Positions 1,556 to 8,061 of a stretch of 64,000 nt of DNA are shown in pieces. The position numbers were made by a program, and so were the translations under genes. The stretch is taken from positions 1-64,000 of the forward strand of contig CANJPQ010000009.1 of NCBI GenBank assembly GCA_947476275.1, in the 5' to 3' direction. The stretch comes from Fidelibacterota bacterium (GTDB lineage Bacteria > Pseudomonadota > Alphaproteobacteria > Rhodospirillales > Rhodospirillaceae). The notes below the pieces were generated by a model, which saw only the letters and a program-made list of their open reading frames with translations, did not search any database and had not been told where the DNA came from. The stretch's first letter is position 1; each line of letters begins with the position of its first letter.

Positions 1556-4500
1556 ATGAACGAGATCATCCCCGTGGAATCCGGCGAACAGTTCGTCGCC
1601 ACCTACAAGAGCAACGTCGAAAAGCTCACGGCGGCGCATGCCTACGATCCCGCCCAGGAGCACGATGCCTGTGGTGTCGGCATGGTGGTGGCCATTGACG
1701 GCCGCCCACGCCGCGAAGTGGTGGACTCAGCCATCGAAGCCTTGCGCGTACTGTATCACCGCGGCGCGGTGGATGCGGACGGCAAGACCGGCGACGGCGC
1801 CGGCATTCATCTGCAGATCCCGCAGGACTTCTTCCGCGATCACGTCACCCGCACCGGTCACACGGTCGCGGACGAAGAGACGTTGTGCGTCGGCATGGTG
1901 TTCCTGCCGAAGTCGGACCTCGGCGCGCAGGAGACTTGCCGCACCATCGTCGAGAGCGAGATCCTCGGCGCGGGCTACTACATCTTCGGCTGGCGCCAAG
2001 TGCCCGTGGACATCGCCGTTATCGGCGAGAAGGCCAACGCCACCCGCCCCGAGATCGAGCAGATCATGATCGCCAATCGCCGCGGCCTGAGCGGCGACGA
2101 GTTGGAACGCGATCTGTATCTCGTGCGTCGGCGCATCGAGAAGCGGGTTTTGGACGAGCACATCAACGACTTCTACATCTGCTCCCTGTCGTCGCGCTCG
2201 ATCATCTACAAGGGCATGTTCCTGGCGGAACAGCTGACCGCGTTCTACCCCGACCTGCTCGACGCGCGATTCGAATCGTCCTTCGCGATCTATCACCAGC
2301 GCTATTCCACCAATACCTTCCCGACATGGCGGCTGGCGCAGCCGTTCCGCATGCTCGCCCACAACGGCGAGATCAACACGCTGCTGGGCAACATCAATTG
2401 GATGAAGGCGCACGAGTGCCGCCTCGAGCATGCGGCGTTCGGCGCGACCATCGAAGAACTGAAGCCAATCGTGCAGCCCGGCGGGTCGGATTCCGCAATC
2501 CTCGACAACGTGTTCGAGCTGCTGTGCCGCTCGGGCCGCGATGCGCCCATGGCGCGCTGCATGCTGGTGCCGGAGAGCATCAGCCAGAACGCCGTGATGC
2601 CCGAAGCGCATCGCAACCTGTTCTCCTACTGCAACGCGGTAATGGAGCCGTGGGACGGCCCGGCAGCCATGTGCGCGACCGATGGCCGCTGGGTGTTGGG
2701 CTTCATGGACCGTAACGGTCTTCGGCCGATGCGCTTCACCCGCACCGCGGACATGCTGTTCGTGGGCTCGGAGACCGGCATGGTGCATGTGCCGAGCGCG
2801 GCCGTGATCGAGAAGGGCCGTGTGGGTCCGGGTCAGATGATCGCGGTCGACCTGAAGGAAGGCCGTTTCTACCACGACCTGGAGATCAAAGATCAGCTGG
2901 CCGGCCGCAAGCCGTTCGGCGACTGGATCAAGAACACCACCCATCTCGATTCCATCGTCACCGCCGCGAAGACGCCGAAGGCGGCGTTGAAGAAGGAAGA
3001 GTTGGTCCGCCGTCAGGCCGGCTACGGCATGACGCTGGAAGAACTCGAACTCATCCTTCATCCGATGGTGGCGGAGGCGAAGGAAGCGATCGGCTCCATG
3101 GGCGACGATACGCCGCTTGCGGTGCTGTCGGACAACTATCGCGGTCTGCATCACTTCTTCCGACAGAACTTCAGCCAGGTGACCAATCCGCCGATCGACA
3201 GTTTGCGCGAGACACGGGTGATGACGCTCAACACCCGCCTCGGCAACCTCGGCAACATCCTGGACGAATCGCCGGGCCAATGCGATCTGCTGCAACTGTC
3301 GAGCCCGCTGCTGACCAACGCCCAGTTCGCCGCCATGCGCAAGTACATGGGCGAGACGGCACGCGACATCGACGCCACCTTCGATGTCGACGGCGGCGAC
3401 GATGCCATTCGCGCAGCCCTTCGTCGCATCCAGCTCGAAGCGGAAGAAGCCGTGCGCGGCGGCTGCACCCACGTAATCATTTCAGACGAGAACGTGAGCG
3501 CAACCCGCGCGCCCCTGCCGATGATCCTGGCGGCCGGCGGCGTGCACACGCATCTGATCAAGCAGAAGCTGCGCACGTTCACATCCGTCAATGTGCGCTC
3601 CGGGGAGTGCCTGGACGTGCATTACACCGCCGTGCTGATCGGTGCCGGTGCGACCACGGTCAATCCCTACATGACCGAAGAAGCGATCGCCGACCGGCAG
3701 CGCCGCGGCCTGTTCGGCGACATGACGCTGGAGGTCGCCTTGAAGCGCTATCAGAAGGCCATCAACGACGGCTTGCTGAAGGTGATGTCGAAGATGGGCA
3801 TTTCCGTCATCAGCTCCTACCGCGGCGGCTACAACTTCGAGGCGGTCGGTCTGTCCCGCGCCCTCGTGGCGGAGTTCTTCCCGGGCATGCCGTCGCGCAT
3901 CTCCGGCATCGGCCTTGCCGGCATTCAGAAGAAAGCCCTGGAGCAGCATCGCCGCGCCTTCCGCACAGAAGCCGTCACGTTGCCTGTGGGCGGATTCTAT
4001 CGCTCCCGCGCCAACTCCGGCGAAGCGCATGCCTTCGACGGGCAGCTGATCCACATCCTCCAAAATGCGGTGGAGAAGGACAGCTACGCCACGTACCTGA
4101 AATACTCCGCGGGCATCCGCAAGATGCCGGCGATCTGGCTGCGCGATCTGTTGGACTTCAAGAAGACCGGCACGGCGATCCCGCCGGAGCAGGTGGAATC
4201 CACCACGGAGATCCGCAAGCGCTTTGTCACCCCCGGCATGTCGCTGGGCGCCTTATCGCCTGAAGCGCACGGCACCCTGAACATCGCCATGAACCGCATC
4301 GGCGCGAAGTCCGACAGCGGCGAAGGCGGCGAGGACCGCCGGCGGTATCGCCCGTTCCCGAACGGCGACAACGCCAACTCCGCGATCAAGCAGATCGCGT
4401 CCGGCCGGTTCGGCGTGACCGCGGAATACCTGAACCAGTGCCGCGAGATCGAGATCAAGGTGGCGCAAGGCGCGAAGCCCGGCGAAGGCGGGCAGCTGCC

Positions 4501-6103
4501 CGGCTTCAAGGTGACCGTGGAGATCGCGGCCCTGCGTCATGCCACACCCGGCGTGATGTTGATCTCGCCGCCGCCGCACCACGACATCTACTCGATCGAA
4601 GATCTGGCGCAGTTGATCTACGACCTGAAGCAGATCAATCCCCGCGCGCGCGTGACCGTGAAGCTCGTCTCCCGCACCGGCATCGGCACGATTGCCGCCG
4701 GCGTTGCCAAGGCGAATGCGGACACCATCCTGGTCTCCGGCCATTCCGGCGGCACGGGCGCGTCACCGCAAACCTCGATCAAGCACGCCGGCCTACCCTG
4801 GGAAATGGGCCTGACCGAAGTGCATCAGGTGCTGACGCTCAACCGTCTGCGCCATCGTGTCGTTCTGCGCACTGACGGCGGCCTGAAGACCGGCCGTGAC
4901 ATCGTGATCGCCGCCATGCTTGGTGCTGAAGAGTTCGGCATCGGCACCACGAGCCTGATCGCCATGGGATGCATCATGGTGCGCCAGTGCCATTCCAACA
5001 CCTGCCCCGTCGGCGTGTGTACGCAAGACACCGACCTGCGCAAGAAGTTCACCGGTACGCCGGAGAAGGTCGTCAACCTGTTCAGCTTCATCGCCGAAGA
5101 GGTGCGCGACATTCTGGCGGGTCTCGGCTTCCGGTCGCTCGATGAGATCATCGGACGCAGCGATCTGCTGCACCAAGTGAGCCGCGGTGCAGCGCACCTG
5201 GACGACCTCGATCTCAATCCGCTGCTGGTGCGTCCGGATTCCGGCGGCCTGCCCACGCGCAACATGCTCAAGGGCCGCAACGAAGTGCCCGAGACGCTGG
5301 ATGCGCAGATGATCGCCGATGCGCGCCCGATGCTGGAGGAAGGTGAGAAAATGCAGCTCACCTATAACGTGCGCAACGTGCAGCGCGCGATCGGCACGAA
5401 GCTGTCGCACATGATCGTCAGCAAGTACGGCATGACGGGTCTCGCGCCGGGCCATATCACCGTGCGCCTGCGCGGCTCCGCCGGCCAATCCCTCGGCGCC
5501 TTCGCGGTGCAAGGGCTGAAGCTGGAAGTGCTGGGCGATGCGAACGACTATGTCGGCAAAGGTCTGTCAGGCGGTACCATTCTGATCCGCCCGACCACGG
5601 GCTGCACCTTCCGCTGGTCCGACAACACCATCATCGGCAATACGGTTCTTTATGGCGCGACCTCGGGCAAGCTGTTCGCGGCGGGCCAGGCGGGCGAGCG
5701 CTTCGCCGTGCGCAACTCTGGCGCCACGGCGGTGATCGAAGGCTGTGGCTCCAACGGCTGCGAGTACATGACCGGCGGCACGGTGGTGATCCTCGGCACC
5801 GTCGGCGCAAACTTCGCCGCCGGGATGACCGGCGGCATGGCGTTCGTCTACGACAAAGACAACCTCATGTCGGCGCGCCTGAACGGCGAGAGCGTCATCG
5901 CGCAACGCATCGCGGTGGGCCACTACGAAACCATGCTGCGCAACCTGGTGATCGAGCATCACCGCGAGACGTCATCGCCGCATGCGGAACAGTTGCTAGT
6001 GAACTGGGACCGGGAAGTGCGCAACTTCTGGCAGATCGTGCCCAAGGAGATGCTGCATCGCCTTGAGGTACCGGTGAGCCGCGAAACGGCGAAACGGGCG
6101 TAA
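1556..6103 (+). CDS. gltB: glutamate synthase (NADPH) large subunit
   Basis: This is the 1515-aa alpha subunit of GOGAT. An N-terminal class II glutaminase domain begins at Cys39 (HDACGVG), exposed after removal of a 38-residue propeptide. The ammonia released is channelled to the central FMN-binding synthase domain, which aminates 2-oxoglutarate. A 3Fe-4S cluster site is seen as Cys1139, Cys1145 and Cys1150, and a C-terminal glycine-rich beta-helix (GXGXG) domain follows. It lies 2 nt behind gltD and ends just before a strong hairpin terminator. Length and domain order are those of bacterial GltB, and no lesion is seen. Confidence 0.97.
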   Translation: MNEIIPVESGEQFVATYKSNVEKLTAAHAYDPAQEHDACGVGMVVAIDGRPRREVVDSAIEALRVLYHRGAVDADGKTGDGAGIHLQIPQDFFRDHVTRTGHTVADEETLCVGMVFLPKSDLGAQETCRTIVESEILGAGYYIFGWRQVPVDIAVIGEKANATRPEIEQIMIANRRGLSGDELERDLYLVRRRIEKRVLDEHINDFYICSLSSRSIIYKGMFLAEQLTAFYPDLLDARFESSFAIYHQRYSTNTFPTWRLAQPFRMLAHNGEINTLLGNINWMKAHECRLEHAAFGATIEELKPIVQPGGSDSAILDNVFELLCRSGRDAPMARCMLVPESISQNAVMPEAHRNLFSYCNAVMEPWDGPAAMCATDGRWVLGFMDRNGLRPMRFTRTADMLFVGSETGMVHVPSAAVIEKGRVGPGQMIAVDLKEGRFYHDLEIKDQLAGRKPFGDWIKNTTHLDSIVTAAKTPKAALKKEELVRRQAGYGMTLEELELILHPMVAEAKEAIGSMGDDTPLAVLSDNYRGLHHFFRQNFSQVTNPPIDSLRETRVMTLNTRLGNLGNILDESPGQCDLLQLSSPLLTNAQFAAMRKYMGETARDIDATFDVDGGDDAIRAALRRIQLEAEEAVRGGCTHVIISDENVSATRAPLPMILAAGGVHTHLIKQKLRTFTSVNVRSGECLDVHYTAVLIGAGATTVNPYMTEEAIADRQRRGLFGDMTLEVALKRYQKAINDGLLKVMSKMGISVISSYRGGYNFEAVGLSRALVAEFFPGMPSRISGIGLAGIQKKALEQHRRAFRTEAVTLPVGGFYRSRANSGEAHAFDGQLIHILQNAVEKDSYATYLKYSAGIRKMPAIWLRDLLDFKKTGTAIPPEQVESTTEIRKRFVTPGMSLGALSPEAHGTLNIAMNRIGAKSDSGEGGEDRRRYRPFPNGDNANSAIKQIASGRFGVTAEYLNQCREIEIKVAQGAKPGEGGQLPGFKVTVEIAALRHATPGVMLISPPPHHDIYSIEDLAQLIYDLKQINPRARVTVKLVSRTGIGTIAAGVAKANADTILVSGHSGGTGASPQTSIKHAGLPWEMGLTEVHQVLTLNRLRHRVVLRTDGGLKTGRDIVIAAMLGAEEFGIGTTSLIAMGCIMVRQCHSNTCPVGVCTQDTDLRKKFTGTPEKVVNLFSFIAEEVRDILAGLGFRSLDEIIGRSDLLHQVSRGAAHLDDLDLNPLLVRPDSGGLPTRNMLKGRNEVPETLDAQMIADARPMLEEGEKMQLTYNVRNVQRAIGTKLSHMIVSKYGMTGLAPGHITVRLRGSAGQSLGAFAVQGLKLEVLGDANDYVGKGLSGGTILIRPTTGCTFRWSDNTIIGNTVLYGATSGKLFAAGQAGERFAVRNSGATAVIEGCGSNGCEYMTGGTVVILGTVGANFAAGMTGGMAFVYDKDNLMSARLNGESVIAQRIAVGHYETMLRNLVIEHHRETSSPHAEQLLVNWDREVRNFWQIVPKEMLHRLEVPVSRETAKRA

Positions 6104-6137: not shown

Positions 6138-7304
6138 CTACAACAGGTGATCCAGAATCCGGATCATCTCCCAGATCTCGTCCTTGCTAACATTCAGAGC
6201 AGGCATGAAACGCAGCGAGTCCGGCCGGGGCGCGTTGAGCAGGAGTCCCGCCGCACGAGCCCGTTCCACGATCTCCGATCCGTTGCGCCGCGGCAGTTCC
6301 AAGGCGAGCAAGAGTCCGCGGCCCCGCACCTCGCCGAGGTTATGCCGGACGGCAAGACCTGATAGTTCGTCGCCAAGCAGTTGGCCCAGGCGCACGACCT
6401 CGTTCAAGAACCCCGGCTTGCTCACTTCCTCCATCACCGCACACCCAACCGCCGCCATGAGCGGATTGCCGTTGAAGGTGCCGCCCTGGTCGCCATGATC
6501 GAAGCAACTGACGACGCCGCGCGCGAGCATGGCGGCAATCGGCACGCCACCGCCGAGCCCTTTGCCAAGGGTCATGATGTCCGGCAACACATCGGCATGC
6601 TGCGCGGCAAACATCTTGCCGGTCCGCCCCACGCCGGTCTGCACCTCGTCGAAGATCAGAAGAAGCCCACGGGCGCGGGTGAGGTCGCGCAGTCCGCGGA
6701 GGAATTCATCCGACGCCGGATAGACCCCCGCCTCGCCCTGGATGGGTTCGAGCATGACAGCGACGGTCGCATCCGTGATCGCCCTGTCGACGGCGGCGAG
6801 ATCGTTCAGTGGCACCTTGTGGAAGCCGGGCACTTTGGGCTCGAACAGGTTTGCCCAATGCGGTTTCCCCGAGGCCGACATGCAGGCGAGCGTGCGGCCG
6901 TGGAAACCTTGTTCCATCGTGACGATGACTGAGGCGCCGCCGCGATATTTCTGGCCCCATTTGCGCGCGAGCTTGATGGCGCCCTCGTTCGCTTCCGCGC
7001 CGGTGTTGGCGAGGAAGACACGATCGAGGCCGCTGTGGTGCGCCAGCAGCGATGCCAGCTGTCCCATGGGCGCATTGAAGAAAGCTGGGCTGCAGTTGAT
7101 CAGCCGTGATGCTTGCAGGATCAACGCGCCGGTCACCGCGGGCGCACAGTGGCCGAGACAGTTCACGGCCCAGCCTTGCACAAAGTCCAGGTAACGCTTG
7201 CCGTCTTGGTCCGTGATCCAGGATCCGCGTCCGGAGACGAATACGGTATCGGGCCGTGGCGCGATGTCCATCACCGCGCTGAAGTCATTTGGTTTAGCGA
7301 GCAT
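6138..7304 (-). CDS. argD: acetylornithine aminotransferase
   Basis: This class III PLP aminotransferase converts N-acetylglutamate semialdehyde to N2-acetylornithine in arginine synthesis, and may also act in lysine synthesis. The 388-aa protein shows [18 protein letters not shown], the pyridine-ring aspartate in [13 protein letters not shown] (D219) and the Schiff-base lysine in TLGKGLGGG (K248). It closely resembles betaproteobacterial ArgD. The start at 7304 has AAGGAGG 5 nt upstream; the upstream in-frame extension runs into the leader and is rejected. It stands alone, without argF or other arg genes. The leader contains a promoter, a short Arg-rich ORF and a terminator (see 7341-7524), so arginine supply probably controls transcription. 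Confidence 0.9.
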
Positions 7305-7340
7305 AAGGTCCTCCTTGGTGAACACAGGACGACCCATCGG

Positions 7341-7382
7341 CACAAAAGAAAAACCCCCACCGATAGGCCATCGGCGGGGGTT
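7341..7382 (-). terminator. intrinsic terminator in the argD leader (attenuator arm 3:4)
   Basis: On the minus strand AACCCCCGCCGAT (7382-7370) pairs with ATCGGTGGGGGTT (7364-7352) through 13 bp including one G-U pair, followed by TTTTTCTTTT. It lies 37 nt before the argD start, so it would cut argD transcription. Its 5' arm can instead pair with an upstream leader segment (7438-7429), as expected of an attenuator. Confidence 0.85.
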
Positions 7383-7406
7383 GGGAATTTTGGAAACGGC
7401 TCTGGC

Positions 7407-7487
7407 TTAGAGCGCGCGCAAAAGTGTCCCCCCGCCGAAAGTACGGCGTCGGCAGGACGGCATCGAGAGGTGCGCGGCGAATGTCAT
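7407..7487 (-). CDS. putative arginine leader peptide of argD
   Basis: This 26-codon ORF lies between the likely promoter and the argD leader terminator. Its middle reads PSCRRRTFGGG, with three consecutive Arg codons (CGA CGC CGT, 7451-7443) and a fourth Arg near the end. No Shine-Dalgarno is visible; the ATG is 8 nt after the -10 hexamer, so the message would be nearly leaderless. The first arm CCTGCCGA (7456-7449) can pair with TCGGCGGG (7438-7431), and TCGGCGGGGG (7438-7429) can pair with CCCCCGCCGA (7380-7371) of the terminator. A ribosome stalled at the Arg codons would block 1:2, allow 2:3 and prevent 3:4. The pairings are read from the sequence; regulation by arginyl-tRNA is inference. 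Confidence 0.65.
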   Translation of the reverse strand: MTFAAHLSMPSCRRRTFGGGTLLRAL

Positions 7488-7495
7488 GGGGCGGT

Positions 7496-7524
7496 GATTT
7501 ACGGCGGGTTGTGGCGAGCGTCAA
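7496..7524 (-). promoter_or_regulatory. candidate promoter of the argD leader
   Basis: TTGACG (7524-7519), a 17-bp spacer and TAAATC (7501-7496) form a sigma70-like promoter on the minus strand. The start point would fall about 7488-7490, at or next to the leader peptide ATG. The -35 box is strong and the -10 box is weak. Confidence 0.5.
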
Positions 7525-7531
7525 TCCCTAC

Positions 7532-8061
7532 TTAGACTTCTTTGCGGTTCGCCATCAGCAGCTTTTGGCCGAACGCGAGTTTCTGTGTGCGGGTGGCGTC
7601 GCGGAGCCAGTCGAGGTTTTCTTGCGCCACGCGCTGTTTGTAGGGGTGATTGTCCGCGAACAGCTCTTGGTACATGACCACGCACCAGGCCGTGAAGGCG
7701 CCCATGGCGCGGCCGAGTGGATTGCCGAGCGCCTCGTACCAATAGCAGCACTGGAACAGCATCAGGTCGTTGATCTCTTCCTGCACGCCGTCGAGCAGCA
7801 CGGCGGCGTCCTGGTCCGGGTAGTGGAAGAAGGCGAGCGTCTGATCCATCAGATCGGCGAACTGATCCTCGCGGCCCGGGCGAATGAAGGCGACCGGATC
7901 GAGTTCGGTGGTGCGCTGATCGGCGAGCGCGCTGAGCGTCCGTCCCGCCGCCGCGACCAGCGTATGGATGGCAATCACATCGCCGCCGTTGAACAAAAGG
8001 CCGGTGGCGGTTTCGATCTGCCGTCGCGCGCCCTAGATCGGCTTGGCGTGGATGACGGCCA

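Follow-up and report, generated by a model that had tools for sequence, protein, structure and literature searches.

A probable arginine-sensing transcription attenuator ahead of a second acetylornithine transaminase gene in a Rhodospirillaceae bacterium, and recurrence of its plan before argD in other genomes

The window, i.e., the whole 64,000-nucleotide stretch that was analysed (contig CANJPQ010000009.1, positions 1 to 64,000, from a bacterium of the Rhodospirillaceae), carries on its minus strand a gene for an acetylornithine transaminase family protein (6138-7304), the product of which scored 594 bits against the NCBIfam equivalog profile PRK03715, over the cut-off of 568. Another argD copy, of the PRK01278 type and followed by the ornithine carbamoyltransferase gene argF, was present elsewhere in the genome; the gene in the window is the second argD (argD2), beside the housekeeping argD1. 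Judged by its sequence, argD2 belongs to the arginine pathway, with a predicted enzyme activity. Its ATG at 7304 (minus strand) is preceded by the Shine-Dalgarno sequence AAGGAGG (7310-7316, minus). Because the next gene past its 3' end, gltB (1556-6103, plus strand), is convergent, argD2 is apparently alone under the leader described here. The block of promoter, leader ORF and terminator sits between the argD ATG and an ORF at 7996-7532. The latter ORF (7532-7996, minus; 154 aa), flanked by the leader and a leucyl aminopeptidase-like gene, gave no Pfam or NCBIfam matches at E 0.001.

The initial annotation had read the region upstream of argD as an attenuator composed of a promoter-like pair, a 26-codon ORF with the codons CGA CGC CGT and four complementary RNA segments. 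The promoter-like pair was found on the minus strand as a -35 element TTGACG (7519-7524) and a -10 element TAAATC (7496-7501) with a spacer of 17, giving a consensus score of 8/12; at this score it was not listed by a general promoter scan of the window, for which the threshold was 9/12 matches. Eight nucleotides separate the -10 element from the leader ATG (7487-7485), and transcription probably begins at this ATG or no more than 1-2 nt away from it. The 26-codon ORF (7407-7487, minus), present letter for letter, encodes MTFAAHLSMPSCRRRTFGGGTLLRAL, terminates with TAA at 7409-7407 and has counterparts in homologous leaders. As there is no Shine-Dalgarno sequence before its ATG, the leader ORF is predicted to be leaderless. 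The control codons (7443-7451, minus) are CGA (7451-7449), CGC (7448-7446) and CGT (7445-7443), corresponding to Arg13-15, and a single additional Arg codon, CGC (7416-7418, minus), is located near the stop (R24 in a C-terminal LLRAL). Arg at the latter place was kept in four homologous leaders (L013-L016), which end in RAL or RAI.

The coordinates and complementarity of the four arms held base for base, all on the minus strand. Arm 1 (7449-7456), which overlaps the first Arg codon, pairs with arm 2 in a helix (7456-7449/7438-7431) of 8 pairs, including one G-U, at -13.7 kcal/mol. Arm 2 (7429-7438) pairs with arm 3 (7371-7380) in the antiterminator (7438-7429/7380-7371; 10 perfect pairs, -22.5 kcal/mol), and arm 3, common to both structures, pairs with arm 4 in an intrinsic terminator hairpin (7352-7382; 14 pairs, -24.0 kcal/mol) that was also located by a terminator scan and is followed by the T5CT4 tail of the initial annotation, T-rich to 7344. 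The 1:2, 2:3 and 3:4 pairings are mutually exclusive and are placed such that a ribosome halted at the Arg codons would hide arm 1 and leave arm 2 free. In agreement with the original claim that stalling at the Arg codons favours 2:3, the arm layout fits such a response: when the RNA left free by a ribosome with CGA in its A site was folded as far as arm 3, 2:3 formed; with arm 2 covered, the terminator formed. The ribosome-free leader ending at arm 3 preferred 2:3 to 1:2. Once arm 4 was included, the terminator was the lowest-energy state in each case folded, even with arm 1 masked. Since equilibrium folds favour the terminator, the choice between 2:3 and 3:4 must be kinetic, as hairpin choice is held to be in classical attenuators. 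A conserved stretch that follows the T tract at 7340-7331 (CCGATGGGTC; its counterpart in L013-L016 is GCCGGCGGG) is similar to arm 2 and, in transcripts that read through, might base-pair with arm 3.

Compared with chance, the leader in the window taken alone is only suggestive. Thus, the fold energy of 7524-7300 gave z = -2.05 (4 of 200 shuffles equally low), the 2:3 pairing was stronger than 97.7% of shuffles (p 0.023), and the terminator scan of the window returned 3 sites versus 2.6 expected, with the leader terminator having the longest stem. The leader stands far above chance because of its recurrence in homologues. The closest of these form a window-family set (i.e., the window and L013-L017), defined by ArgD homologues at E <= 1e-100 and comprising 6 of 73 family genomes. 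Whether relatives keep the Arg codons and the 2:3 pairing had been named as a check on the attenuator reading, and both were kept in this set: at least two successive Arg codons were present in the leaders of 6/6 homologues, and the 2:3 pairing beat at least 97% of shuffles in 5/6. A terminator followed the leader ORF in all six, and three Arg codons in a row were noted in two (L012 and L016). The leader peptides of the family include, besides that of the window, MHFAATLFRPIRRHRHASGGDGHSRAL and MTLAAHLFATSRRRRRIHIGGAGAVRAI, while that of L017 was less similar.

Recurrence was assessed further in 124 upstream regions, all collected through argD: 72 loci from the homologue searches, 26 picked by genus and 26 of 40 named loci, the other 14 (31-41% identity) having been dropped. 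An ATG ORF, 8-45 codons long and with a run of three or more Arg codons, was found within 283 nt upstream at 78 of the 124 loci, compared with 4.8 expected from dinucleotide shuffles; the remaining 46 had no run of three. At least half of the loci passed in 24 of 45 genus labels (1.6 expected), among which Bradyrhizobium and f199/g377 probably represent a single genus that entered the count twice. Of 2507 real sequence segments drawn from these loci, 131 (5%) contained a three-Arg run in an ATG ORF. The same leader test, applied to the best 30 of 63 places for housekeeping argD1 in the window's family, was passed by one region of 30, and runs of at least two in ATG ORFs occurred in 95 of 124 argD2 regions (30.8 expected) versus 11 of 30 argD1 regions.

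These counts bear on one alternative, which is that an ordinary terminator of the upstream gene happens to lie behind a chance ORF. The hairpin is indeed also 3' of the ORF at 7532-7996, and Arg runs appear by chance in about 5% of windows; however, a promoter-like pair and an ORF intervene between the stop at 7532 and the terminator, the 35 nt from the hairpin (7352) to the Shine-Dalgarno sequence (7316) offer scant space for another promoter, and the same plan occurs before argD in different genomes. On the strength of this recurrence the explanation was rejected, and we regard it as exceedingly improbable.

Other arginine genes of the same genome were inspected for comparable features. When any start codon was allowed, three-Arg runs were noted in 2 of the 30 argD1 regions, including that of the window's own genome, where a GTG/TTG ORF before argD1 ends in CGT CGC CGG. 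By eye, argG was preceded by a TTG ORF with RR but by no ATG leader, and no ATG leader was seen before the argC candidate, the gene start of which is uncertain. This candidate, the best argC match in the genome (G000:C53:12337-13158), scored 152.7 bits, below the TIGR01850 cut-off of 233.6, and is perhaps a different argC type. In 26 of 30 regions upstream of argD1-argF in the window's family (L185-L214), a hairpin arm with the sequence CCGCCC precedes a T run, directly behind a TTGACA-type promoter where one was visible by eye; this is possibly a second, different attenuation element or 5' end element.

The plan found before argD2 reaches Bradyrhizobium, a family termed here Burkholderiaceae-like (f244) because its leaders match a Burkholderia RNA family, and further families; as read from these sequences, the device is widespread and not local. 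Leaders of the Bradyrhizobium type (MKLNRTHRRAICRRRTRDDAGLRRVRRHR and kin) were also present in f199 members of the same class as the window, which grouped with Bradyrhizobium in the ArgD tree, and f244 leaders were of the form MNRIQSELRRRRSPLP and kin. The peptides differed between groups while the plan was kept. A search for Arg-run ATG ORFs gave no evident leader in, among others, f214, f246, f222, Candidimonas or a Desulfobacterales locus, nor in the f244 genera g498, g565, g574, g575, g577, g578 and g581. The distribution of this ArgD is itself patchy: at E <= 1e-115 it was found in 9 of 297 genomes from the order, in 8 of 385 from the class and in 33 of 398 from the phylum, in samples that overlap and with the best few candidates scored in larger genomes, and within f244 it was present in 128 of 150 genomes. 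At the DNA level, a search of 61 genomes recovered the leader itself, beyond the window, only in L003 (69% identity), and a distant DNA search in plasmids gave no matches. The leader label, mapped onto a 48-row ArgD tree, required 9 changes, which indicates that the leader is old with losses or has often moved. The labelled rows include a Verrucomicrobiaceae homologue (L021), in which an Ala-rich ORF with two Arg (MKNLTLSTIAAIAAARATARAAAAICELEGSD; 2735-2833) and a terminator precede this argD, perhaps as an attenuator for another amino acid.

Counts for individual leaders refer to 90 loci, obtained from the 95 with at least two successive Arg codons by removing five by eye (L032, L071, L073, L111 and L113) in which the ORF apparently fell within coding sequence or was without promoter or terminator; L021 is outside the 90, and in 15 loci the leader start was chosen by hand among nested ATGs. 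In 81 of the 90, a -35/-10 pair scoring at least 8/12 preceded the leader ATG at a constant, short spacing, compared with 1.8% of 1800 random positions, and an SD-like motif preceded the ATG in 2 of the 90. With the promoter at this constant short distance and SD-like motifs rare, a leaderless ORF is the natural reading. The trpL leader of Sinorhizobium meliloti is likewise described as leaderless (PMC10117765).

A restricted choice of codons was evident in the Arg runs. Thus, the 293 run codons comprised 123 CGC, 108 CGT, 61 CGA and 1 CGG, with no AGA or AGG, so that CGA, CGC and CGT accounted for 292 of 293, whereas among 1497 Arg codons of the corresponding argD genes CGG made up 31% and CGA 3.2%. 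The first codon of the run was CGA at 57 of 90 loci, and the commonest first codon per genus label was CGA in 27 of 30, the exceptions being Bradyrhizobium, f199/g377 and g17 with CGT; in the Bradyrhizobium type the run was taken, by rule, at the middle cluster. CGA, CGC and CGT are decoded by tRNA-Arg with anticodon ACG (ICG). Genes for tRNA-Arg with anticodons ACG, CCG, CCT and TCT were found in the window's genome (among the loci of 30 of 42 tRNA places). Since the run codons are almost confined to the set of one tRNA, a single isoacceptor is apparently what the leader reads. According to theory, for which there is experimental support that includes Arg, charge is lost to differing degrees among isoacceptors, and attenuators rely on those codons that are most sensitive (PMC1183508). 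CGA may in addition have been fixed partly through base pairing, as the Arg run lies in arm 1; the structure line of the matching Rfam family (see below) also places the run there. In L066, L072, L018 and kin, a second Arg cluster (RRVRRHR or RHVRRRR) was noted at the stop of Bradyrhizobium-type leaders, and a ribosome paused there would cover arm 2.

Codon identity also bears on whether the leader might be a general sensor of translation speed, in which any slow translation of the ORF, and not arginine in particular, would lead to read-through. CGA is slow to decode in general, and the three g19 leaders of the window-family set read RRHRH, with two His among the control codons. Arg was nevertheless common to the leaders of all groups having one, except the Ala-rich L021 with its two Arg, and argD makes an arginine precursor; we hold an unspecific sensor to be highly improbable. 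Another possibility is arrest by the nascent peptide, in which the leader peptide itself would stall the ribosome in response to arginine, ornithine or a similar ligand, perhaps with a response of reversed sign. Ligand-dependent stalling has been proposed for leaders of the SpeFL/ORF34 type. The leader peptides here are Arg-rich and the metabolism is arginine-related, and orf34 of speF is described as having two consecutive Arg codons (PMC6386406). Outside the Arg run, however, the peptides are hardly alike between groups, and conservation resides in tandem codons for one tRNA, which peptide recognition does not need. This makes arrest by the peptide very unlikely.

Returning to attenuation by alternative RNA pairing, the antiterminator duplex was compared with shuffled sequences in 86 leaders, of which 19 gave p <= 0.05 (4.3 expected). 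With the Bradyrhizobium type left aside, the proportion was 19 of 54 (2.7 expected). Values were 0.023 for the window, as given above, and 0.007-0.03 for L013-L016. In the Bradyrhizobium type, the 2:3 duplex exceeded shuffles at p <= 0.05 in 0 of 32 leaders; the script had begun at the second Arg cluster in some f199 rows. A hairpin was picked for 91 of the 95 loci; it was weak in L071 (-2.5), lay inside the ORF in L065, L068, L125 and L126, and lay behind the apparent real terminator in L085.

Covariation between the arms, the other conservation named as a check by the initial annotation, was seen at single positions. At one position in the 32 Bradyrhizobium-type leaders, the bases in arms 2, 3 and 4 were C/G/C in 17, T/A/T in 9 and T/G/C in 5, with one unmatched; the T/G/C state corresponds to a G-U intermediate in 2:3. 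In an alignment of 30 Bradyrhizobium-type rows (A1), 97.1% of 2:3 cells and 99.7% of 3:4 cells were paired, compared with 30-64% and 29-54%, respectively, when the arms were slid, and none of 500 shuffles reached the covariation score. The changing 2:3 position in A1 was C-G in 16 rows, U-A in 6, U-G in 5 and unpaired in 3, these last being rows that pair in a shifted register. In the alignment of the window set (A2, 7 rows), 87.1% of 2:3 cells were paired versus 34-57% when slid, with one exchanging pair (C-G in 5, U-A in 2); shuffles reached the covariation score in 19 of 500 cases and the percentage paired in 122 of 500. The 3:4 cells of A2 were paired at 94.1%, a value reached by 139 of 500 shuffles. 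Covariation therefore amounts to one changing pair per helix (1/8, 1/11, 1/10 and 1/10). The other pairs were mostly invariant, and the Bradyrhizobium-type duplex was not above shuffles.

A different output was noted at four loci (L062, L063, L064 and L068), where an Arg-run leader was present, a terminator was not evident and a long hairpin covered the argD Shine-Dalgarno sequence instead. Three of these (L062, L064 and L068) were in the ArgD tree, on which the masking label changed once; L063 was outside it. Between the leader and this hairpin, L062, L063 and L068 contained a near-identical stretch, GCGACTGYCGCCGRGAGGCGGGGG, which is perhaps the anti-sequester element of a translational version. 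In the window, folding of the 48 nt around the argD Shine-Dalgarno sequence gave a possible hairpin of 9 pairs over it (7306-7335, minus; -16.0 kcal/mol, 16 of 200 shuffles as low), behind the terminator. Corresponding folds of 48 nt in L013-L015 did not show such a hairpin, and in L016 one covering the Shine-Dalgarno sequence was seen by eye near the argD start, besides an upstream terminator. The combination of both structures in the window and L016 is perhaps a double output.

A known RNA family coincides with the leader in part of its range. The Rfam family RF02884 (BcKCsr7), filed as an sRNA, gave a full-model match to the leader at 10 of 18 f244/f249 loci (2/4 and 8/14), and we take BcKCsr7, from this sequence match, to be this argD leader in Burkholderia-type genomes. 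The window itself gave no matches to 4227 Rfam families at the gathering score, and its Rfam matches up to E 5 offered nothing usable, BcKCsr7 not being among them. Bc_KC_sr7 is listed with nc5U30 and RIT34 as an expressed RNA of 147 nt on chromosome 1 of B. cenocepacia J2315 (2,967,641-2,967,787; PMC10987360), and short 5'UTRs have been described as due to processing or attenuation (PMC5688073). We infer that the nc5U names denote the latter RNAs, although neither nc5U nor argD appears in the main text of PMC5688073. From the equivalent B. cenocepacia leader, a short RNA with the anticipated length has thus been seen, and its reading as the product of an arginine attenuator is suggested by sequence; in the portions of the literature covered, the Bc_KC_sr7/nc5U30 RNA was not found called an arginine attenuator. 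Both the filing of BcKCsr7 by Rfam and the trans action of rnTrpL and peTrpL in Sinorhizobium (PMC10117765) would suit an RNA or peptide that functions mainly in trans, with read-through into argD secondary, a view compatible with attenuation. The kept features are nevertheless those of a cis attenuator, in loci that were all collected via argD, and a mainly trans-acting role is considered very unlikely.

We conclude that the leader is very probably a ribosome-mediated transcription attenuator that senses arginine, as charged tRNA-Arg (ICG), and controls the second acetylornithine transaminase gene. The sequence parts, their recurrence, the choice of codons and some covariation in pairing are observed; recurrence before argD supports the attenuator reading of the initial annotation, and the response to arginine is predicted from sequence. 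RNA polymerase would start at or beside the leader AUG, and a ribosome would load on the leaderless end. With ample arginine, the ribosome would pass CGA CGC CGT and then either follow the polymerase over arm 2 or let 1:2 form, so that arms 3:4 would fold as the terminator and only a short leader RNA would be made. With Arg-tRNA (ICG) scarce, the ribosome would stall with its A site at CGA, covering arm 1 (7456-7449), and its leading edge, for a footprint of the size generally assumed, would reach only about the start of arm 2 (7438). Arm 2 would then pair with arm 3 once the latter is made, the terminator would come too late and argD would be transcribed. In this model, stalling and both the sign and the size of the response are predictions, as are the start site and leaderless initiation.

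Classical attenuators of proteobacteria include the his, trp, thr, leu, ilv and phe leaders. The leader described here is like these in having an ORF with tandem codons for the product, mutually exclusive 1:2, 2:3 and 3:4 hairpins and a terminator before a biosynthetic gene, and unlike them in that the amino acid is arginine and the gene argD; arginine is reportedly not listed in a 2004 survey of proteobacterial attenuators. Similarities were noted with three further systems. S. meliloti rnTrpL also has its leader ORF at the RNA 5' end and is an attenuator with a short RNA product, with Trp codons and trpE there as opposed to Arg codons and argD here (PMC10117765). In Salmonella speF, consecutive Arg codons in orf34 are described as sensing arginine, which makes it the nearest precedent met for such sensing, although Rho, RNase G, access to the ribosome-binding site and ornithine decarboxylase are involved there and an intrinsic terminator here (PMC6386406). 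Lastly, uORFC-8-2 in the cysS leader of Rhodobacterales is a proposed alphaproteobacterial ribosome-mediated attenuator with tandem codons and a terminator, in this case Cys codons before cysS (PMC8632094). The suggestion that an Arg-codon attenuator before argD may be new agrees with a full-text search of mostly open-access papers, in which no description of one was met; novelty is accordingly unproven.

To our knowledge, the question of how arginine synthesis is adjusted in proteobacterial classes without ArgR is largely open. A study of 196 genomes reported that ArgR is conserved among gammaproteobacteria and that the other proteobacterial classes covered lack it (PMC5343134). For the control of argD in these classes, the leader offers a direct and testable answer. 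The device is predicted from its sequence to work like the his and trp attenuators in responding to arginine, which would then join the amino acids sensed by classical attenuation. BcKCsr7, an Rfam RNA filed only as sRNA, gains a likely function, and the leader lends itself to a test of the theory that the codons employed in attenuators are those with the tRNA that is first to lose its charge (PMC1183508). More tentatively, and with somewhat less than even confidence in the whole, we suggest a widespread and probably old arginine-starvation attenuator that serves as the direct sensor for argD in alpha- and beta-type proteobacteria, reported to be without ArgR. It would read the charging of tRNA-Arg (ICG) alone, with the inefficient CGA as trigger, and its output would have been switched in some lineages to masking of the argD ribosome site. 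BcKCsr7 would be its terminated product, and pausing at the second Arg cluster near the stop, with the ribosome then lying over arm 2, may make the response sharper.
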